Position numbers and translations under genes: made by a program. The notes beneath the pieces are model-generated. The model did no database searches. It was not told the origin of the DNA and saw nothing but the letters and a program-made list of their open reading frames with translations. From Salvelinus alpinus (taxonomy: Eukaryota; Chordata; Actinopteri; Salmoniformes; Salmonidae), in NCBI RefSeq assembly GCF_045679555.1, contig NC_092122.1:7008694-7072693 (forward strand): a stretch of DNA of 64,000 nt, given 5' to 3'. Below, in pieces: positions 4,624 to 55,665 of this stretch; positions within the stretch are counted from its first letter, which is position 1, and the number at the start of each line of letters is the position of its first letter.

Positions 4624-6201
4624 CACTGCTCAAAAAAATAAAGGGAACACTAAAATAACACATCCTAGATCTGAATGAATGAAATATTCTTGTTAAATAC
4701 TTTTTTCTTTACATAGTTGAATGTGCTGACAACAAAATCACACAAAAATGATCAATGGAAATCAAATGTATCAACCCATGGAGGTGTGGATTTGGAGTCA
4801 CACTCAAAATTAAAGTGGAAAACCACACTACAGGCTGATCCAACTTTGATGTAATGTCCTTAAAACAAGTCAAAATGAGGCTCAGTAGTGTGTGTGGCCT
4901 CCACGTGCCTGTATGACCTCCCTACAAAGCCTGGGCATGCTCCTGATGAGGTGGCGGATGGTCTCCTGAGGGATCTCCTCCCAGACCTGGACTAAAGCAT
5001 CCGCCAACTCCTGTACAGTCTGTGGTGCAACGTGGCGTTGGTGGATGGAGCGAGACATGATGTCCCAGATGTGCTCAATTGGATTCAGGTCTGGGGAACG
5101 GGCGGGCCAGTCCATAGCATCAATGCCTTCCTCTTGCAGGAACTGCTGAAACACTCCAGCCACATGAGGTCTAGCATTGTCTTGCATTAGGAGGAACCCA
5201 GGGCCAACTGCACCAGCATATGGTCTCACAAGAGGTCTGAGGAACTCATCTCGGTACCTAATGGCAGTCAGGCTACCTCTGGCGAGCACATGGAGGGCTG
5301 TGCGGCCCCCAAAGGAATGCCACCCCACACCATGACTGACCCACCACCAAACCGGTCATGCTGGAGGATGTTGCAAGCAGCAGAACGTTCTCCACGGCGT
5401 CTCCAGACTCTGTCACGTCTGTCACGTGCTCAGTGTGAACCTGCTTTCATCTGTGAAGAGCACAGGGCGCCAGTGGCGAATTTGCCAATCTTGGTGTTCT
5501 CTGGCAAATGCCAAACGTCCTGCACGGTGTTGGGCTGTAAGCACAACCTCCACCTGTGGACGTTGGGCCCTCATTCCACACTCATGGTGTCTGTTTCTGA
5601 CCGTTTGAGCAGACACATGCACATTTGTGGCCTGCTGGAGGTCATTTTGCAGGGCTCTGGCAGTGCTCCACATGCTCCTCCTTGCACAAAGGCGGAGGTA
5701 GCGGTCCTGCTGCTGGGTTGTTGCCCTCCTACGGCCTCCTCCACGTCTCCTGATGTACTGGCCTGTCTCCTGGTAGCGCCTCCATGCTCTGGACACTACG
5801 CTGACAGACACAGCAAACCTTCTTGCCACAGCTCGCATTGATGTGCCATCCTGGATGAGCTGCACTACCTGAGCCACTTGTGTGGGTTGTAGACTCCGTC
5901 TCATGCTACCACTAGAGTGAAAGCACCGCCAGCATTCAAAAGTGACCAAAACATCAGCCAGGAAGCATAGGAACTGAGAAGTGGTCTGTGGTCACCACCT
6001 GCAGAACCACTCCTTTATTGGGGGTGTCTTGCTAATTGCCTATAATTTCCACCTTTTGTCTATTCCATTTGCACAACAGCATGTGAAATTTATTGTCAAT
6101 CAGTTTTGCTTCCTAAGTGGATAGTTTGATTTCACAGAAGTGTGATTGACTTGGAGTTACTTTGTGTTGTTTAAGTGTTCCCTTTATTTTTTTGAGCAGT
6201 G
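4624..6201 (-). mobile_element. nested, nearly full-length Tc1-like transposon
   Basis: The 1578-bp element has termini CACTGCTCAAAAAAATAAAG and CTTTATTTTTTTGAGCAGTG, which are near-perfect inverted repeats, and TA on each side (4622-4623, 6202-6203). GGGAACACT near the left end is mirrored by AGTGTTCCC near the right end. It encodes one transposase on the minus strand (see 4882-5949). The near-identical TIRs and mostly open frame suggest a recent insertion, younger than the surrounding Tc1 copy. Confidence 0.92.
4882..5949 (-). pseudogene. Tc1/mariner transposase with two compensating frameshifts
   Basis: This would be a DNA-binding cut-and-paste transposase of the Tc1 family, acting in the nucleus on the TIRs at 4624 and 6201. 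The first part (5949-5422) holds an N-terminal helix-turn-helix ([13 protein letters not shown]... to about residue 63), an arginine/glycine-rich linker (RRRGGGRRR), a second HTH region and the first catalytic Asp in LFTDESRF. The last part (about 5312-4882) holds the second Asp in MQDNARPH and the Glu in [11 protein letters not shown], with 34 residues between them (DD34E). In between, translation stops at 5422, but the middle piece including GGGSVMVWGG continues in another frame. Frame breaks near 5424 and 5310 together restore the original frame. The short ATG at 5328 lies out of frame and is not the true start. Inactive as it stands, but only two small indels from open. Confidence 0.88.
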
Positions 6202-10673: not shown

Positions 10674-11742
10674 CAGTCATATAGCCTCGGCACCTACATA
10701 AAGCTGTGACTCAGTCATATAGCCTCGGCACCTACATAAAGCTGTGACTCAGTCATATAGCCTCGGCACCTACATAAAGCTGTGACTCAGTCATATAGCC
10801 TCGGCACCTACATAAAGCTGAGTGACTCAGTCATATAGCCTCGGCACCTACATAAAGCTGTGACTCAGTCATATAGCCTCGGCACCTACATAAAGCTGTG
10901 ACTCAGTCATATAGCCTCGGCACCTACATAAAGCTGTGACTCAGTCATATAGCCTCGGCACCTACATAAAGCTGTGACTCAGTCATATAGCCTCGGCACC
11001 TACATAAAGCTGTGACTCAGTCATATAGCCTCGGCACCTACATAAAGCTGTGACTCAGTCATATAGCCTCGGCACCTACATAAAGCTGTGACTCAGTCAT
11101 ATAGCCTCGGCACCTACATAAAGCTGTGACTCAGTCATATAGCCTCGGCACCTACATAAAGCTGTGACTCAGTCATATAGCCTCGGCACCTACATAAAGC
11201 TGTGACTCAGTCATATAGCCTCGGCACCTACATAAAGCTGTGACTCAGTCATATAGCCTCGGCACCTACATAAAGCTGTGACTCAGTCATATGGCCTCGG
11301 CACCTACATAAAGCTGTGACTCAGTCATATGGCCTCGGCACCTACATAAAGCTGTGACTCAGTCATATAGCCTCGGCACCTACATAAAGCTGTGACTCAG
11401 TCATATAGCCTCGGCACCTACATAAAGCTGTGACTCAGTCATATAGCCTCGGCACCTACATAAAGCTGTGACTCAGTCATATAGCCTCGGCACCTACATA
11501 AAGCTGTGACTCAGTCATATAGCCTCGGCACCTACATAAAGCTGTGACTCAGTCATATGGCCTCGGCACCTACATAAAGCTGTGACTCAGTCATATAGCC
11601 TCGGCACCTACATAAAGCTGTGACTCAGTCATATAGCCTCGGCACCTACATAAAGCTGTGACTCAGTCATATAGCCTCGGCACCTACATAAAGCTGAGTG
11701 ACTCAGTCATATAGCCTCGGCACCTACATAAAGCTGTGACTC
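10674..11742. repeat. 38-bp minisatellite, about 28 copies
   Basis: The unit is 38 bp (CAGTCATATAGCCTCGGCAC followed by CTACATAAAGCTGTGACT) and is repeated almost without change. Two units, ending near 10820 and 11700, carry an extra AG giving GCTGAGTGACTCAG, and three units near 11290, 11328 and 11558 have CATATGG instead of CATATAG. Each junction contains TGACTCA, an AP-1/TRE consensus. No open frame runs through it consistently, since 38 is not a multiple of 3. Confidence 0.98.
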
Positions 11743-11964
11743 ACTCATTCATGGCTTTGGATCAAAATAAATAAGTACCAACATTCTTTCTGATGGTCTT
11801 TAATAAAGAAATGTGTTGGTTATCCTGACCTGGACACCATGTACAGTACAGTATTATAATAATCCCATTATGGGCTATTAGCAGCACAATAGACTCTTGC
11901 CAAAACCTCTCTATATTTTGATACTTTGTGCAAGGCAATTGATCAGCATTAAAAACTTTGGATG
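11743..11964. other. unassigned DNA sharing a block with 13670-13715
   Basis: The segment ATTATGGGCTATTAG followed by a block ending GACTCTTGCC recurs at about 13677-13718 with few changes. No gene. Confidence 0.5.
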
Positions 11965-43282: not shown

Positions 43283-44599
43283 AAGGTTGTGTTAATTTCA
43301 ACCAAATGAAATGTGCGCTCAATTTACATTTTCAATACAAAGCGGAGAGGTAACACATCTGAAAGACTTGCCGTTAATCAATCTATTAATACAAACGGGG
43401 GATGTCCTAAGGACATTATGTGAAGTTTCCATTAGGTTCCTTTACGAGACGTTATCCCAATAACATTCTGAGAACGTTCTATGAACATTAAAACATGGCG
43501 TTAACATAGGTACCATAATAGGATGTTCAGTACAGGTCGCAATTTGGTCGCAGTATAACGTTATAATAAGGTATTTTGATGTCAATTAGGGAACATTGCG
43601 AAAAGGTTCCTATTTGGTTCTGATAGGATGTTAAACATATGACTTTCAATGACCATTCACTGAGGACCATGTCAGGACCTTTTTAGGACGTTCCCAGGAC
43701 TTTCATTTAACTAGTCCTTAGGATGTCATGTAAAGGTCCTAAGGGAAAGTTCTCTGGTGGACATTTGTCTAGTTCCCAGTAAGTTACCAGTAAGTTACCA
43801 GTAAGTTACCAGTAAGTTACCAGTAAGTTACCACATTGAGGACCATGTTACGACATTTGTAAGATGTACTCAAGACATTTGTTTTACCAGGCGTCAGGAT
43901 GTCTGATTGTGCCAGGTGTCCCAAACCATTATAAGTAAACTAATGAAATGGTATGGGGGTGTAAAGGTAATTGGTATGCTGTTCAGTTAAAATTGTGTAC
44001 AAATCTTTAATTGACGACAATATGATTACATTTGACATGATCACTTAGTACTGACTTTTCAATATGAACCCACCTGGGATTTGAACCCACAACCTCTGGA
44101 TTTGGGGTAAGCTGATCTTTTTGCTGCGTCACAGTCCATAGCATTCGCAGAAGTCCCCTACACGTTCATTACCTATAATACTGTAGGTATGCAGGCACAC
44201 ACACACATAGGCACACACATATGCACACACACACACACTCTCTTTCGATCAATCTCTCTCACACACATGCACTCACGCATGCACACCCACACAGAGACTC
44301 ACACACACACACACCTCTCCCTATGCTTCATTATCACACATTCATCACCTAGGACTACTGTTGACGGCTGCTGGTTCTGATGTATTGTTCTGACTCAGGC
44401 AGTGACTGTATTCAGTCACGCAGAGTTGTGTAGGCACGACACAGCCGCATGGGTTTCATCTGTTATTTAAATCAGTCTCATGCAGCAGTTGTTGTATTAG
44501 ATTATCACTTGCAAGAATCAAGTGTTTAAATACATTTTTGGTAAGCCTTTATACGTATGTAAATCTGATTTGTACTTATTCTATTAAAATCTCTCAATA
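43283..44599. other. unassigned repeat-like DNA (GTTCC/GGAC motifs, CA patches)
   Basis: Recurrent GGACATT, AGGTTCC and ACGTTC motifs over 43390-43900 suggest a decayed dispersed repeat. A B-box-like sequence on the minus strand at 44073-44095 (GAGGTTGTGGGTTCAAATCC) may be a SINE head. Imperfect CA tracts lie at 44195-44240 and 44270-44315. Confidence 0.4.
43777..43831. repeat. 11-bp tandem repeat CAGTAAGTTAC x5
   Basis: Five perfect copies of CAGTAAGTTAC. Each copy contains CAG|TAAGT, which resembles a splice-donor sequence, but there is no exon context. Confidence 0.97.
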
Positions 44600-44903
44600 C
44601 ACCGATTATACCAAACATTAGGAACACCCTCCTAATATAGAGTTGTACCCCCCCCCCCCCCCTCACCTTTTTGCCCTCAGAACAGCCTCAATTTGTTCGG
44701 GCATGGACTCTAAAATGTGTCGAAAGACTTCCACAGGGATGCTGGCCCATGTTGACCCCAATGCTTCCCACAGTTGTGTCAAGTTGGCTGGAGGACCATT
44801 CTTGATACACACATGAAACTGTTGAGGATGAAAACCCCAGCACCATTGCAGTTCTTGACACAAACCGGTGCGCAGGTGTCCTTAATGTTTTGTATACTCG
44901 GTG
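44600..44903 (-). mobile_element. Tc1-derived MITE with a transposase tail
   Basis: The 304-bp element has ends CACCGATTATACCAAACATT and TTTTGTATACTCGGTG, with TA at both sides (44598-44599, 44904-44905). The minus strand keeps a C-terminal transposase scrap: [18 protein letters not shown], then [15 protein letters not shown] 14-15-bp C-run lies at 44649-44662. The fragment at 1838-2067 is the other end of the same family. Confidence 0.8.
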
Positions 44904-45421
44904 TATATCTCGCTTTCAAGTATATTTACAGTTTTTTTACAATCACTTTGGCACTATTTTCAAAACCATGATGTCATTTTTCAAAACTCTAACACTTTTT
45001 CCAATTGCTTGCATACAATACACATGAAGCTAAGATCATTTGTTCATTGAACTAAAATCACCTGTTGAAAATAACACAACTTAACATCGAAGTATTACCA
45101 TTTCAAAATGCAATTCACACATTACATCTGAGATGACTGTCTATTAATTTAATTACAATGATCTAACTATCAATTAATACAACTGCTCAAAATGATAACT
45201 GTTGCATTACTCTTTATGGAAATTGACGAACAATATTCCATGTTTAGATTATGAAAGTTTCAGGATAACGAGATCCATTGACACTAATTACAGTGGAACA
45301 TGAACCAATTGGATTACATTATCTATGGATGTAATATTTCATCATCATTCTTTAGCAGACACTGTTTCTATGGTCCCATGTACGGTTTTTCCAGACCATG
45401 TTTTCAGATTTGACATTACTG

Positions 45422-45961
45422 TACACTCACCAGCCACTTTATTGGTTACACCTATCTAGTACTGGGCAGGACCACCTTTTGCCTCCACAACAACCTGAAT
45501 TATTCACAGTGTTGTACATTAAGAGATGCCCTTCTGCACACCACTGTGTTAAATGGCTGTTATTTGAGCATTTGTGGCCTTTCTGTTTGCTTGAAGGAGT
45601 CTGGACATTCTACTCTGACCTCTCTCATTAACAAGGTGTTTTTGCCGACAGATCTGCCTCTCACTGAATGTGTTTTGTTTATCGCACCATTCTCTGTACT
45701 CTAGAGACTGTAGTGTGTAAAAATCCCAGAAGGGCAGCTGTTCCTGAGAAGCTGGAACCACAATGTGTGGCACCAACAATCATACCATGGTCGAAGTTGC
45801 TTAGATTACGCATCTTGCCTGTTCTAATGTTTGGTCGAACAACAACTAAAGCTCTCTACTCTATATATTGAGTTGCAGGCAGCCACGTGATTCGCTGTTC
45901 GAAGGAGCAGGCTATTTGCGCTAACACGCAGGTATACCTAGTTAAATGGCCGGCGAGTGTA
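45422..45961. mobile_element. non-autonomous DNA transposon nested in the 44929 element
   Basis: The inverted ends TACACTCACCAGCCACTTTA and TAAATGGCCGGCGAGTGTA border 540 bp without coding content. The first and last TA may be the target duplication. I recognise the ACTCACCGGCCACTTTATTA-type terminus from other teleost genomes, but I cannot assign a superfamily. Confidence 0.8.
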
Positions 45962-46049
45962 CGTATGCAGGCCCTTGTAATTGCTTTTCCAATACTGTCA
46001 ACTCGTTACTAATGATTGATTTCACATTGTGGTACGAGTATATAGTGAA

Positions 46050-47476
46050 ATGAGTGGTATCCACCTACAACAACATAGCGATAACATGGAGCCAGCAGGT
46101 GATCCAGGTCACAATAGAGTTCAAGCAGTGGGAGGAGGAAGACATGGTGGTCAAAGGAATGGCAGGGGACAAGCACCCCTTCTGAGAGGTGGTCGTGGGC
46201 CTGGTTTGAGAGGTGTGGGGGAACGTGGTAGAGGACAAGGCCACGGACCAAGACAGCGGCAGCAGCAGAAAAGAGTGTCCAATGAAATACGAGCAGTAGT
46301 AGTAGACCATGTCTTAAATCATGCCATGACAATGACTGAGGCAGCTACAATGATTCAACCAAACCTCAGAAGATCAACCGTGGCCTCAGTCATCAGAACT
46401 TTCCGCAGTGAGAACCGGTAAGTCTTCAGCATGCACTAAACATTAGGCTACTCTCAATTGTCAAATGACTGTATACTGCATGCCAATGTGTACCACAGAG
46501 TAGGTGATGTGACTAAATGTGTTCTTACTGTAATTTTCCCTGCAGAATTGAGACAAGGCCAAATAGAGGAGGCAGAGGCAAAATTCTGACTGACCAACAA
46601 AAGCGGGCCGTGGTCAATTTGGTTCGGGCCAGAAATAATATTCGACATACAGAAATTCTGCAGCACATCTTGGACAATGAGGACATGTTCAACAATGTGG
46701 AAGCCATAAGTTTGCCGACTATTGCACGCATGGTGAAAAGGCACCAGGTGTCTCTAAAACAGCTATACCGTGTGCCTTTTGAAAGAAATGCAGACAGAGT
46801 GAAGCAACTGAGGACTGAGTATGTTCAGGTATGTTCAGTTTCAAGATGCCTGTTGTGAAAAATTCCCCAAAAATTCTATATCATTGTAAACAGCAATTCT
46901 CTTTCCAAAATGTATTTTCAGAGGGTGATGGAGCCAGATGCTGACGAAAACCATCACAAATTCCTCTTTTTGGATGAGGCAGGCTTCAACCTGGCCAAGA
47001 CAAGGAGGAGAGGTTGGAATTTAATTCCCCAGCGGGCAACCATCCAAGTACCTGGACAACATGAGGCCAACATCACCATGTGTGCGGCTATATTGGATGG
47101 TGTGGTGGGACGCAGACCTCGTATTGGATCATATAATGAAGCTCTCCTTGTAACCTTCCTTGATGAGCTAAATCAGGTCTGTAGAGCTGATGGCGTCACC
47201 TATGTCATTGTGTGGGATAATGTCAGGTTCCACCATGCTCAAATGGTGCAAGTATGGTTTCAGGCCCATCCACAATTTACCACCCTGTACTTACCCCCAT
47301 ACTCTCCTTTCCTTAAACCGATTGAGGAATTTTTCTCCACATGGAGGTGGAAGGTATATGATAGGCGCCCTCAAAAACAAGCCACCCTTCTCCAGGCCAT
47401 GGACGACGCATGCAATGATATCACGGCAGGCCTGGATTCGCCCTGCCCGAAGATTCTTCCTAAGATGTTTGGCTAA
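46050..47476 (+). CDS. DD35E-type transposase, three exons, 401 aa
   Basis: Exons 46050-46417, 46546-46828 and 46922-47476 join in frame. Introns start GTAAGT and GTATGT and end CCCTGCAG and TTTTCAG; the first junction splits a codon and the second lies between codons. Residues 27-75 are Arg/Gly-rich (GGGRHGG, RGGRGPGLRG). About 77-122 form a first HTH (NEIRAVVVDHV, RRSTVASVIR) and 123-217 a second DNA-binding segment (LTDQQKRAVVNLVRARN, SLPTIARMVKRH). The catalytic core has Asp235 (FLFLDEAGFN), Asp316 (VIVWDNVRFHHA) and Glu352 (PFLKPIEEFF), with 35 residues between the last two. This is the DDE_3/IS630-Tc1 fold. The last ~17 residues look frameshifted: another frame from about 47425 reads WIRPARRFFLRCLANENI and then CDVDENLW to a stop at 47558, which I take as the original C-terminus. 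An ATG at 46086 is an alternative start. Confidence 0.88.
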
Positions 47477-48109
47477 TGAAAACATCCATTGTGATGTGGA
47501 TGAGAACCTGTGGCCAAATCCACAAGACAGGGTTGAGGGAAATATAGAAGTACAGTAATCAACCCATTGTTTTGCTTTTTACAGTAAGCCAGGTGAGGAA
47601 CACTGCAGTTGATGTTCTACTGTAGTTTTCTTTCTTTTTTGTAGCTAATTATTTTAGCTTTGATTCAAAGAAACCTACATTATGTTGTGATGTTATTGTA
47701 TTTCATCAATACATTTCAGATTTTGTTCAATGATCCAACTGTTCTGTAGTATTCTCTCTACTAGTCCTTTTACGGTGATATATTTACGTGTGGTACCATA
47801 ATGAAACATGTATCACATATTTTGTACGACAATATTTAATGATTGTACGAACAACTACACAGTGACACTATCGGTATCTTGTGTGATCTAAATGAATGTT
47901 CCATTGGTATATCATGATAAATGAGTTATTTGAACCAATGATTCTGCAACTGGAAAGATTCTTTAAAGATCTGAATGCACAATGCAATGTTTTGAACATG
48001 GGACAGCCTGTGTTACAAGTGATGACCGTTTTGAGTTTTGGGTCTCGAGTTTTGAAAAATGACCACAAGCTTCTGAAATGAGTGCCAAAGTGATTGTAAA
48101 AAAACTGTA

Positions 48110-54621: not shown

Positions 54622-55665
54622 CAAGTTTGGACATCACAGTACAGCACAGCAGAGTGTAGTAGAGTACCGTACAGTACAGAACAGTACAGTACAATACAGT
54701 ACAGCACAGCAGAGTGTAGTAGAGTACCGTACAGTACAGAACAGTACAGTACAATACAGTACAGCACAGCAGAGTGTAGTAGAGTACCGTACAGTACAGA
54801 ACAGTACAGTACAATACAGTACAGCACAGCAGAGTGTAGTAGAGTACCGTACAGTACAGAACAGTACAGTACAATACAGTACAGCACAGCAGAGTGTACT
54901 AGAGTACCGTACAGTACAGAACAGTACAGTACAACACAGTATAGCACAGCAGAGCGTAGTAGAGTACCGTACAGTACAGAACAGTACAGTACAATACAGT
55001 ATAGCACAGCAGAGTGTAGTAGAGTACCGTACAGTACAGAACAGTACAGTACAATACAGTATAGCACAGCAGAGTGTAGTAGAGTTCCGTACAGTACAGA
55101 ACAGTACAGTACAATACAGTATAGCATAGCAGAGTGTAGTAGAGTACCGTACAGTACAGAACAGTACAGTACAATACAGTATAGCACAGCAGAGTGTAGT
55201 AGAGTACCGTACAGTACAGAACAGTACAGTACAATACAGTATAGCACAGCAGAGTGTAGTAGAGTACCGTACAGTACAGAACAGTACAGCACAATACAGT
55301 ATAGCACAGCAGAGTGTAGTAGAGTACCGTACAGTACAGTACAATACAGTACAATACAGTATAGCACAGCAGAGCAGAGCAGAGTAAAGCAGAGTTCAGT
55401 ACAATATACTGACTGTACTCTACTGTACTATACTCTGCTTTTCTTTACTATACTGTATTGTACTGTACTACTATATTGTATTGGACTGTACTTTACTGTG
55501 CTCTACTGACTGTACAGTATTCTTCTGTACTGTACTGTGCTGTCCTAACTTATAAAACGTGTCTATGATAGGTTCAGATTTGGTCCAGTCCGGTCCATCT
55601 GTGGACGTTAACATCAAGGCCAGGGTGGACTGACCAAATTTCAACTACTTCTCAAAGTCCATGGT
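54622..55665 (-). repeat. TACAG-rich foldback repeat, copy 2, with an expanded 60-bp array
   Basis: The array is followed at 55395-55545 by TACTGTAC-rich complementary arms and at 55560-55660 by the inverted version of the flank at 49020-49130 (CAGATTTGGTCCAGTCCGGT; ACATCAAGGCCAGGGTGGAC). The element therefore lies opposite to copy 1. Confidence 0.8.
54639..55375. repeat. 60-bp tandem array, about 12 copies
   Basis: The unit is exactly 60 bp (AGAGTACCGTACAGTACAGA followed by ACAGTACAGTACAATACAGT and ACAGCACAGCAGAGTGTAGT). The first five units carry ACAGCACAGC and later ones TATAGCACAGC; single-unit variants include GTGTACT, GAGCGTAGT and AGTTCCGT. Because 60 is a multiple of 3, three or more frames stay open across it (Tyr/Cys/Val/Leu-rich). 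These are not genes. Confidence 0.97.

Follow-up and report, generated by a model that had tools for sequence, protein, structure and literature searches.

For Tc1, mariner and Sleeping Beauty, transcription of the element, binding of its terminal inverted repeats (TIRs), excision and insertion at TA are established, and to our knowledge neither Mos1 nor Sleeping Beauty carries introns. The transposase gene of the Drosophila P element has introns, the retention of which could give a DNA-binding fragment. The fish family DD35E/Traveler is built around a single open reading frame (ORF) of 304-350 amino acids within an element of 1.1-2.2 kb (PMC7093834), the TcMar-ISRm11 class is listed within Tc1/mariner of teleost genomes (PMC4746887, PMC10770143), and TLEWI, Tc1-like elements of molluscs (Puzakov et al. 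2020), are reported to have 3-5 spliceosomal introns (PMC10379824, PMC8533490). Here we describe an element in a stretch of 64,000 nucleotides from Salvelinus alpinus (assembly GCF_045679555.1, contig NC_092122.1, positions 7,008,694 to 7,072,693, forward strand), referred to below as the window, with position 1 as its first letter. We are highly confident that the element is a full-length fossil of a fish IS630/Tc1/mariner transposon present in multiple copies, the transposase gene of which has two ancestral spliceosomal introns.

The transposon comprises 3,179 bp (44929-48107), flanked on both sides by TA dinucleotides read from the sequence as the target-site duplication (44927-44928 and 48108-48109). 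Its TIR arms (left, 44929-44989, forward strand; right, 48047-48107, reverse strand) are 61 bp each and 88.5% identical, and the outermost 27 bp of both are perfectly matched (CAGTTTTTTTACAATCACTTTGGCACT). An earlier examination of the DNA, here called the sequence-only reading, had given 63-bp TIRs; the inverted ends, the identity of the first 27 bp and the TA all stand, whereas the 63 bp included the TA and the TIR itself is 61 bp. When the ends of sampled genomic copies were counted with a pattern allowing 4-8 T plus one substitution, TA lay beside the TIR at 13 of the 14 left ends and at 19 of the 24 on the right, and at both ends in five copies. The TIRs and TA duplication that characterize the IS630/Tc1/mariner superfamily are hence found on both sides of the window element and in the sampled copies. 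The exact 27-bp TIR occurs ten times in the genome, two of these being the window's own ends, compared with zero occurrences of the reversed control, and a search of viral contigs with the same TIR gave no locus.

Inside these ends, three exons on the forward strand are joined in frame across junctions 46417|46546 and 46828|46922 into 401 codons plus a stop, confirming the three-exon transposase with GT-AG splice sites that had been proposed. Exon 1 (46050-46417, alternative start at 46086) encodes an Arg/Gly-rich N-terminus and the first helix-turn-helix (HTH); its relatives begin at MSGIHLQQHSDN or at MEPAGD. Exon 2 (46546-46828) encodes a linker, which we take to be GRPR-like, and a second HTH, as judged from the joined translation and the domain model of a relative, and exon 3, which the sequence-only reading had placed at 46922-47476 and which ends early after a frameshift, encodes the DDE_3 catalytic domain. 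The joined translation also upholds the proposed catalytic residues D235 (46973-46975), D316 (47216-47218) and E352 (47324-47326), with 35 residues between the last two (DD35E); the triad is invariant across 25 aligned relatives (alignment A1). Intron 1 (46418-46545; 128 bp, phase 2, GT-AG) has a position common to subfamilies and public proteins, and unspliced exon 1 meets a stop right at the donor (CGG TAA, 46416-46421). Exons 2 and 3 share a reading frame, which a stop at 46856-46858 interrupts in intron 2 (46829-46921; 93 bp, phase 0, GT-AG). Two shared introns are found where the superfamily usually, although not by definition, has a single intronless ORF.

The assignment to the IS630/Tc1 superfamily rests on profile, domain and fold, and on these grounds the earlier assignment can be retained. 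The NCBIfam IS630 model NF033545 scored 125.1 bits on the joined window product, above its cut-off of 100, and 111-150 bits on three relatives; on exon 3 alone it scored 89.4 bits, below the cut-off, and on a 157-amino-acid Tc1-like fragment of the window, used as a partial control, 52.4 bits. Pfam DDE_3 matched residues 231-372 of the product (2.5e-20), and HTH_32 matched at 1.2e-05, below its gathering score. An AlphaFold model of the relative P0010 (mean predicted local distance difference test score 75, below 50 for residues 1-35; predicted template modelling (TM) score 0.57) contains three-helix bundles at residues 40-83 and 101-150, bearing out the two DNA-binding segments noted earlier and placing two HTH modules, as is typical of the superfamily, before an RNase-H-like domain that starts at residue 191. 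The best fold matches of this model were Mos1 (E 3.2e-13) and Sleeping Beauty (2.7e-08), in keeping with the RNase-H-like DDE/D domain indicated by DDE_3 and the catalytic triad. Superposition gave target TM scores of 0.62-0.74 for catalytic-domain entries and about 0.4-0.5 for full-length chains, a poor fit, and the arrangement of the domains is therefore not established by the model. A sequence search of the PDB with one protein returned Sleeping Beauty weakly (0.12), among five matches that look like chance, and a search with the profile gave 2.2e-06. The site of intron 1, at residue 85, separates the two helix bundles, and that of intron 2 follows residue 179 and precedes the catalytic part, so that on the predicted structure the introns are located at the HTH1/HTH2 and DNA-binding/catalytic borders. 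Seven loci were found in prokaryote genome contigs, with 28-35% identity in their best segments. In viral contigs neither the window protein nor profile A1 found a locus; in the profile search a pattern matched 55 stretches, none of which encodes a relative.

The family is abundant in the host genome (2.37 Gb in 928 contigs searched), as had been anticipated: exon 3 as a DNA query gave 918 candidates, and all 40 that were scored, the window included, matched at 90-100%. The alignment of 39 further copies, chosen by their exon-3 match, to the window element extends well outside exon 3, and both introns are found again in this set. In the readable copies the splice dinucleotides are retained at donor 1 (33/34), acceptor 1 (33/34), donor 2 (32/36) and acceptor 2 (35/36). 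The 144-bp stretch around intron 1 measures 133-164 bp in 30 of the 39 copies, 21 having the window length, and the 111-bp stretch around intron 2 measures 90-132 bp in 31 of the 39, 11 having the window length. The sequence-only reading had depended on other genomic copies with the same introns, and these exist. Divergence of the copies from the majority is 2.6-4.5% alike in exons, introns and flanks, as would be expected of neutral decay after insertion.

The strongest evidence for ancestral introns comes from more distant subfamilies. P0036, a relative from Salmo salar, shares 53% identity with the window product over 79% of the latter. With this protein as the query, the host genome yielded 17,058 candidates, of which 103 were scored to give 177 matches, among them matches at 93-96%, as would suit a salmonid host. 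Wherever such matches comprise several exons per copy, the breaks lie at about residues 87 and 181. Five of the eight loci L055-L062 (L056, L059, L060, L061 and L062) have an uninterrupted or nearly uninterrupted match per exon; in L058 there is a break inside exon 2, and L057 has overlapping pieces. All printable intron edges of L055-L062 are GT or AG (donor 1, n=8; acceptor 1, n=5; donor 2, n=6; acceptor 2, n=6), and in L063, L065 and L066, which are close to P0010, as well as in L064 of a further subfamily, donor 1, donor 2 and acceptor 2 are present in all four. Intron lengths vary: intron 2, 93 bp in the window, is 94-95 bp in six of L056-L062, 76 bp in L063, L065 and L066 and 117 bp in L064, and intron 1, 128 bp in the window, is 195-205 bp in six of L056-L062. 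Subfamilies only about 50-60% identical hence share intron positions and phases while the lengths have drifted, and because of this combination we read the introns, from the sequences, as older than the split of subfamilies that have only about half their residues in common. This constitutes better evidence than counts of public proteins.

Two of these loci were considered as cases of precise intron loss and rejected, since L055 keeps intron 1 and has lost intron 2 plus about ten neighbouring exon codons, and L063 has both introns. L056 and L062 belong to a second subfamily with other TIRs, of the TTACAGTTTTTTCCAATTGCTAACACAC type, found in two of three loci tried. This subfamily is probably younger, because many of the exon-3 frames listed for it, as for the subfamilies outside the window family, are free of stops.

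Public proteins break at the same junctions. We classified 234 listed relatives from three protein queries (the best 120 of 434, plus 37, plus 77); these sets overlap in ancestry, and the junction counts are not independent proofs. At donor 1, 92 of the 126 proteins with an anchor are joined to exon 2, 19 end, nine continue into other sequence and six stop short of the site. Eighteen of the 19 that end there do so on R, and one a residue earlier, which follows from a phase-2 GTAA donor giving CGG TAA. At donor 2 (n=181), 108 are joined, 66 run into other sequence, three end and four are short of the site; V begins 61 of the 66 read-throughs, because a phase-0 GT donor (GTN) can yield V only. 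Acceptor 1 (n=176) shows 80 joined, 47 with other sequence, 19 starts and 30 short of the site, and acceptor 2 (n=122) shows 111 joined, nine with other sequence and two short of the site. Six of those nine read through intron 2 and emerge with FQ or VQ, as demanded by a CAG acceptor. Along a family reference, alignment ends accumulate at both donors (within 2 residues, 23 and 61 of the 234, against a median of 1 per bin), and alignment starts do so at acceptor 1 (54 of 234; median 0 per bin). Annotated isoforms differ at the junctions as well. Isoforms X1 and X2 of LOC128534595 from the catfish Clarias gariepinus are identical over 339 residues and differ by 31 amino acids exactly at junction 2, and one annotated isoform of the loach gene LOC129445423 is without the last 27 residues of exon 2.

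The window copy itself is decayed. The frame is lost after about residue 385 of the 401-amino-acid product, the end of which is in the wrong frame, and the family C-terminus, which in relatives continues ...QAWIRHARRFFPRCLANENIHCDVDENLWPNP, is found in another frame at 47382-47555 (forward strand). Over this stretch, 30 of 34 spanning copies exceed the window in length, the excess being exactly 11 bp in 14. Five of the 39 residues that are invariant among the 25 aligned relatives are altered in the window product, and the exon-3 core is open and in frame in only one of 36 spanning sampled copies. Because of the C-terminal frameshift and the five changed residues, the window copy is dead and unable to make a working enzyme. 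The description of the transposon as near-complete thus applies to its DNA and does not extend to its gene.

Several observations weigh against two ancestral introns. P0010, a continuous protein of 395 residues on a 2,157-bp contig, and P0064 both run uninterrupted across the two junctions, and they are the two candidates found for the continuous relatives that the sequence-only reading had named as counter-evidence. Both bear the source tag lgn, which presumably denotes assembled SRA runs. In the genome, the closest copies to P0010 have the introns (in L065, where both are present, the three exons are 74/82/91% identical to P0010), and for this reason a spliced transcript is the likelier explanation of P0010, rather than an intronless copy; we read P0064 likewise. 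Locus L055 has lost intron 2 along with exon sequence. The length of intron 2 in the window, 93 bp, is divisible by three, and the intron can be read through in frame in some subfamilies and in the relatives P0037, P0047, P0074, P0106, P0117 and P0226; a coding insert at this position is nevertheless disfavoured by the lengths of 76, 94 and 95 bp in other subfamilies. None of the 234 alignments starts at acceptor 2, where no exon-3-only query was run against the protein collection, and smaller peaks of starts lie off the junctions (23 near residue 85 and 14 near residue 137 of the reference). The third protein query contained the window's intron edges, which biases the share of read-throughs upward. 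Finally, nine of the 39 copies were unmeasurable at intron 1 and eight at intron 2.

Of the alternatives, the one that survives best adds a function to the introns, which by analogy with the P element might act as a switch, with proteins made from intron-retaining transcripts repressing transposition. The sequence-only reading had suggested that splicing control of this kind might confine activity to certain tissues. If intron 1 were retained, the product would be a short protein with the Arg/Gly region and HTH1; if intron 2 were retained, it would be a DNA-binding protein that lacks the catalytic domain. The introns are placed at module borders. In the window family a stop follows immediately on read-through of intron 1, which in the other relatives seen appends as many as 16 residues (P0153), and among annotated isoforms P0074 retains intron 2 and P0016 uses an inner donor. 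In the window family, read-through of intron 2 is predicted to reach a stop after nine codons and so to leave a DNA-binding fragment. However, where intron 2 is open, as in the six relatives named above, retention would lengthen the protein by an insert instead of truncating it, and this disfavours a conserved switch at that intron. We consider the switch unlikely, although it deserves more credit than the readings that follow.

Membership of the element in DD35E/Traveler is very improbable. The 35-residue spacing between the last D and the E, the TA target, the fish hosts and a TIR length within 13-68 bp are shared with that family, which has one ORF of about 340 amino acids in about 1.5 kb and ends that are mostly CAGTC or CAGCC (PMC7093834). 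The element described here has three exons and two introns in 3.18 kb, outside the single-ORF, 1.1-2.2 kb format, and another TIR end motif, CAGTTTTTT.

It could also be argued that insertions or decay interrupted an ORF that was formerly continuous, and that the supposed introns have GT and AG at their edges by chance. The window copy is decayed, its intron 2 is divisible by three, and the ORF of Tc1/mariner elements is as a rule single and intronless (PMC10379824). The positions and phases are, however, common to the readable genome copies and to subfamilies about 50-60% identical, intron lengths elsewhere break the frame, and dozens of public proteins break at the junctions; introns common to diverged subfamilies refute a chance origin, to which we assign hardly any weight. 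A domesticated host gene, a notion favoured by fish gene models that are spliced and have annotated isoforms, is the least credible of all and is refuted for the window copy by its TIRs and TA, the dispersal of copies over many contigs and the neutral-looking divergence of exons, introns and flanks.

For the ancestral-intron transposon, a conventional mode of action can be proposed from what is known of the superfamily. Host RNA polymerase II would transcribe the element and the two introns would be spliced out of the transcript. The resulting transposase would bind the TIRs via the two HTH modules from exons 1 and 2, and the RNase-H-like domain of exon 3 would excise the element, which would then be inserted at TA.

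The Arg/Gly-rich N-terminus noted in the sequence-only reading proved to be common to the family, with at least 40% R+G before the first HTH in 80 of the 88 relatives that have at least 30 residues there. It is a disordered, fast-changing tail encoded by a minisatellite. The window has one 66-bp unit (46174-46239, forward strand; 22 amino acids, RGQAPLLRGGRGP.LRGVGERG type), and seed matches in the 39 copies number 0-22 per copy, with none in eight. The spacing of the units is mostly about 66 bp, but L035 has 48 bp and L054 about 80 bp. Counted in exon 1 (46160-46239), there are 22 units of 66 bp in L021, 5-7 in L017, L019, L025 and L048 and one in the window, and L035 has 20 units of the 48-bp version. 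Isoforms of LOC109199799 from Oreochromis niloticus (P0089, P0093 and P0112) differ by one or two whole 16-residue Arg/Gly units. A 3' untranslated stretch (47577-47624, forward strand), a single unit in the window, is a minisatellite with a 38-bp period in L028, L035, L049 and L054. It is conceivable, if a little more doubtful than the switch itself, that this vertebrate lineage kept its introns since alternative splicing makes the transposon's own inhibitors, and that the minisatellite adjusts how long the Arg/Gly tail is. With the same reserve, the inhibitors would be an Arg/Gly-rich single-HTH protein from retention of intron 1 and, where intron 2 is closed, a catalytically empty TIR binder from retention of the latter.

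The 5' part of the element includes a segment resembling a miniature inverted-repeat transposable element (45421-45962), with 33-nt inverted ends (45421-45453 and 45930-45962) that are 76% identical. The segment aligns in the sampled copies, and its presence in further copies of the transposon means that it was carried along with the family rather than inserted in the window copy alone. A short element with 32-nt inverted ends (88%) occupies 44597-44906 and stops about 20 bp before the transposon. Elsewhere in the window there is a Tc1-like transposase remnant on the reverse strand (4882-5355; DDE_3, 1.1e-11), a 38-bp tandem repeat (10674-11748; 28 copies, 98% alike) and a 60-bp tandem repeat with a 5-bp sub-period (54636-55374; 12 copies, 97% alike). 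A scan of the window against Rfam at gathering scores gave no match.

Relatives of this transposase are present in fish annotations under a variety of names, which suggests that some spliced genes annotated as uncharacterized, or oddly named, are transposases. In Sarotherodon galilaeus, proteins named SH2 domain protein 1A, E74-like factor 3, myogenic factor 5 and glutaminase (P0005, P0013, P0023 and P0067) match the transposase, and these names are likely annotation errors. The fish proteins named "insertion element IS630 uncharacterized 39 kDa protein" have the same DD35E and TA; the Labeo rohita protein of this name, P0009, is 84% identical over 28% of the query, and a second such protein, P0008, is 77% identical over 40%. 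The prokaryotic IS630 loci, with their 28-35% identity, differ from the fish family in its introns and Arg/Gly-rich head. The titles and abstract beginnings of the open-licence literature named no intron-bearing IS630-like fish transposon, which is weak evidence of absence, and neither did the available portions of PMC7599744 and PMC9341512. The TcMar-ISRm11 class may be this fish group, a guess from the name of a class known to us by label alone; introns are unmentioned in the available portions of the teleost repeat reports that list it (PMC4746887, PMC10770143).

Mos1 and Sleeping Beauty have the same catalytic fold and two helical DNA-binding modules, but the identity in aligned rows is only 15-18%. 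The Drosophila P element resembles the fish element in its intron-bearing gene and encodes a transposase of a different family. TLEWI and the fish family both have spliceosomal introns, 3-5 in the molluscs and two in the fish. Since Tc1/mariner elements are usually intron-free (PMC10379824), the fish case is notable, and a widespread lineage in fish with two conserved introns at the borders of its modules offers a tractable system in which to ask whether introns of cut-and-paste transposons persist as regulators or as baggage. Introns in Tc1-like transposons are already reported from molluscs, and the fish IS630-like case is a new variant.

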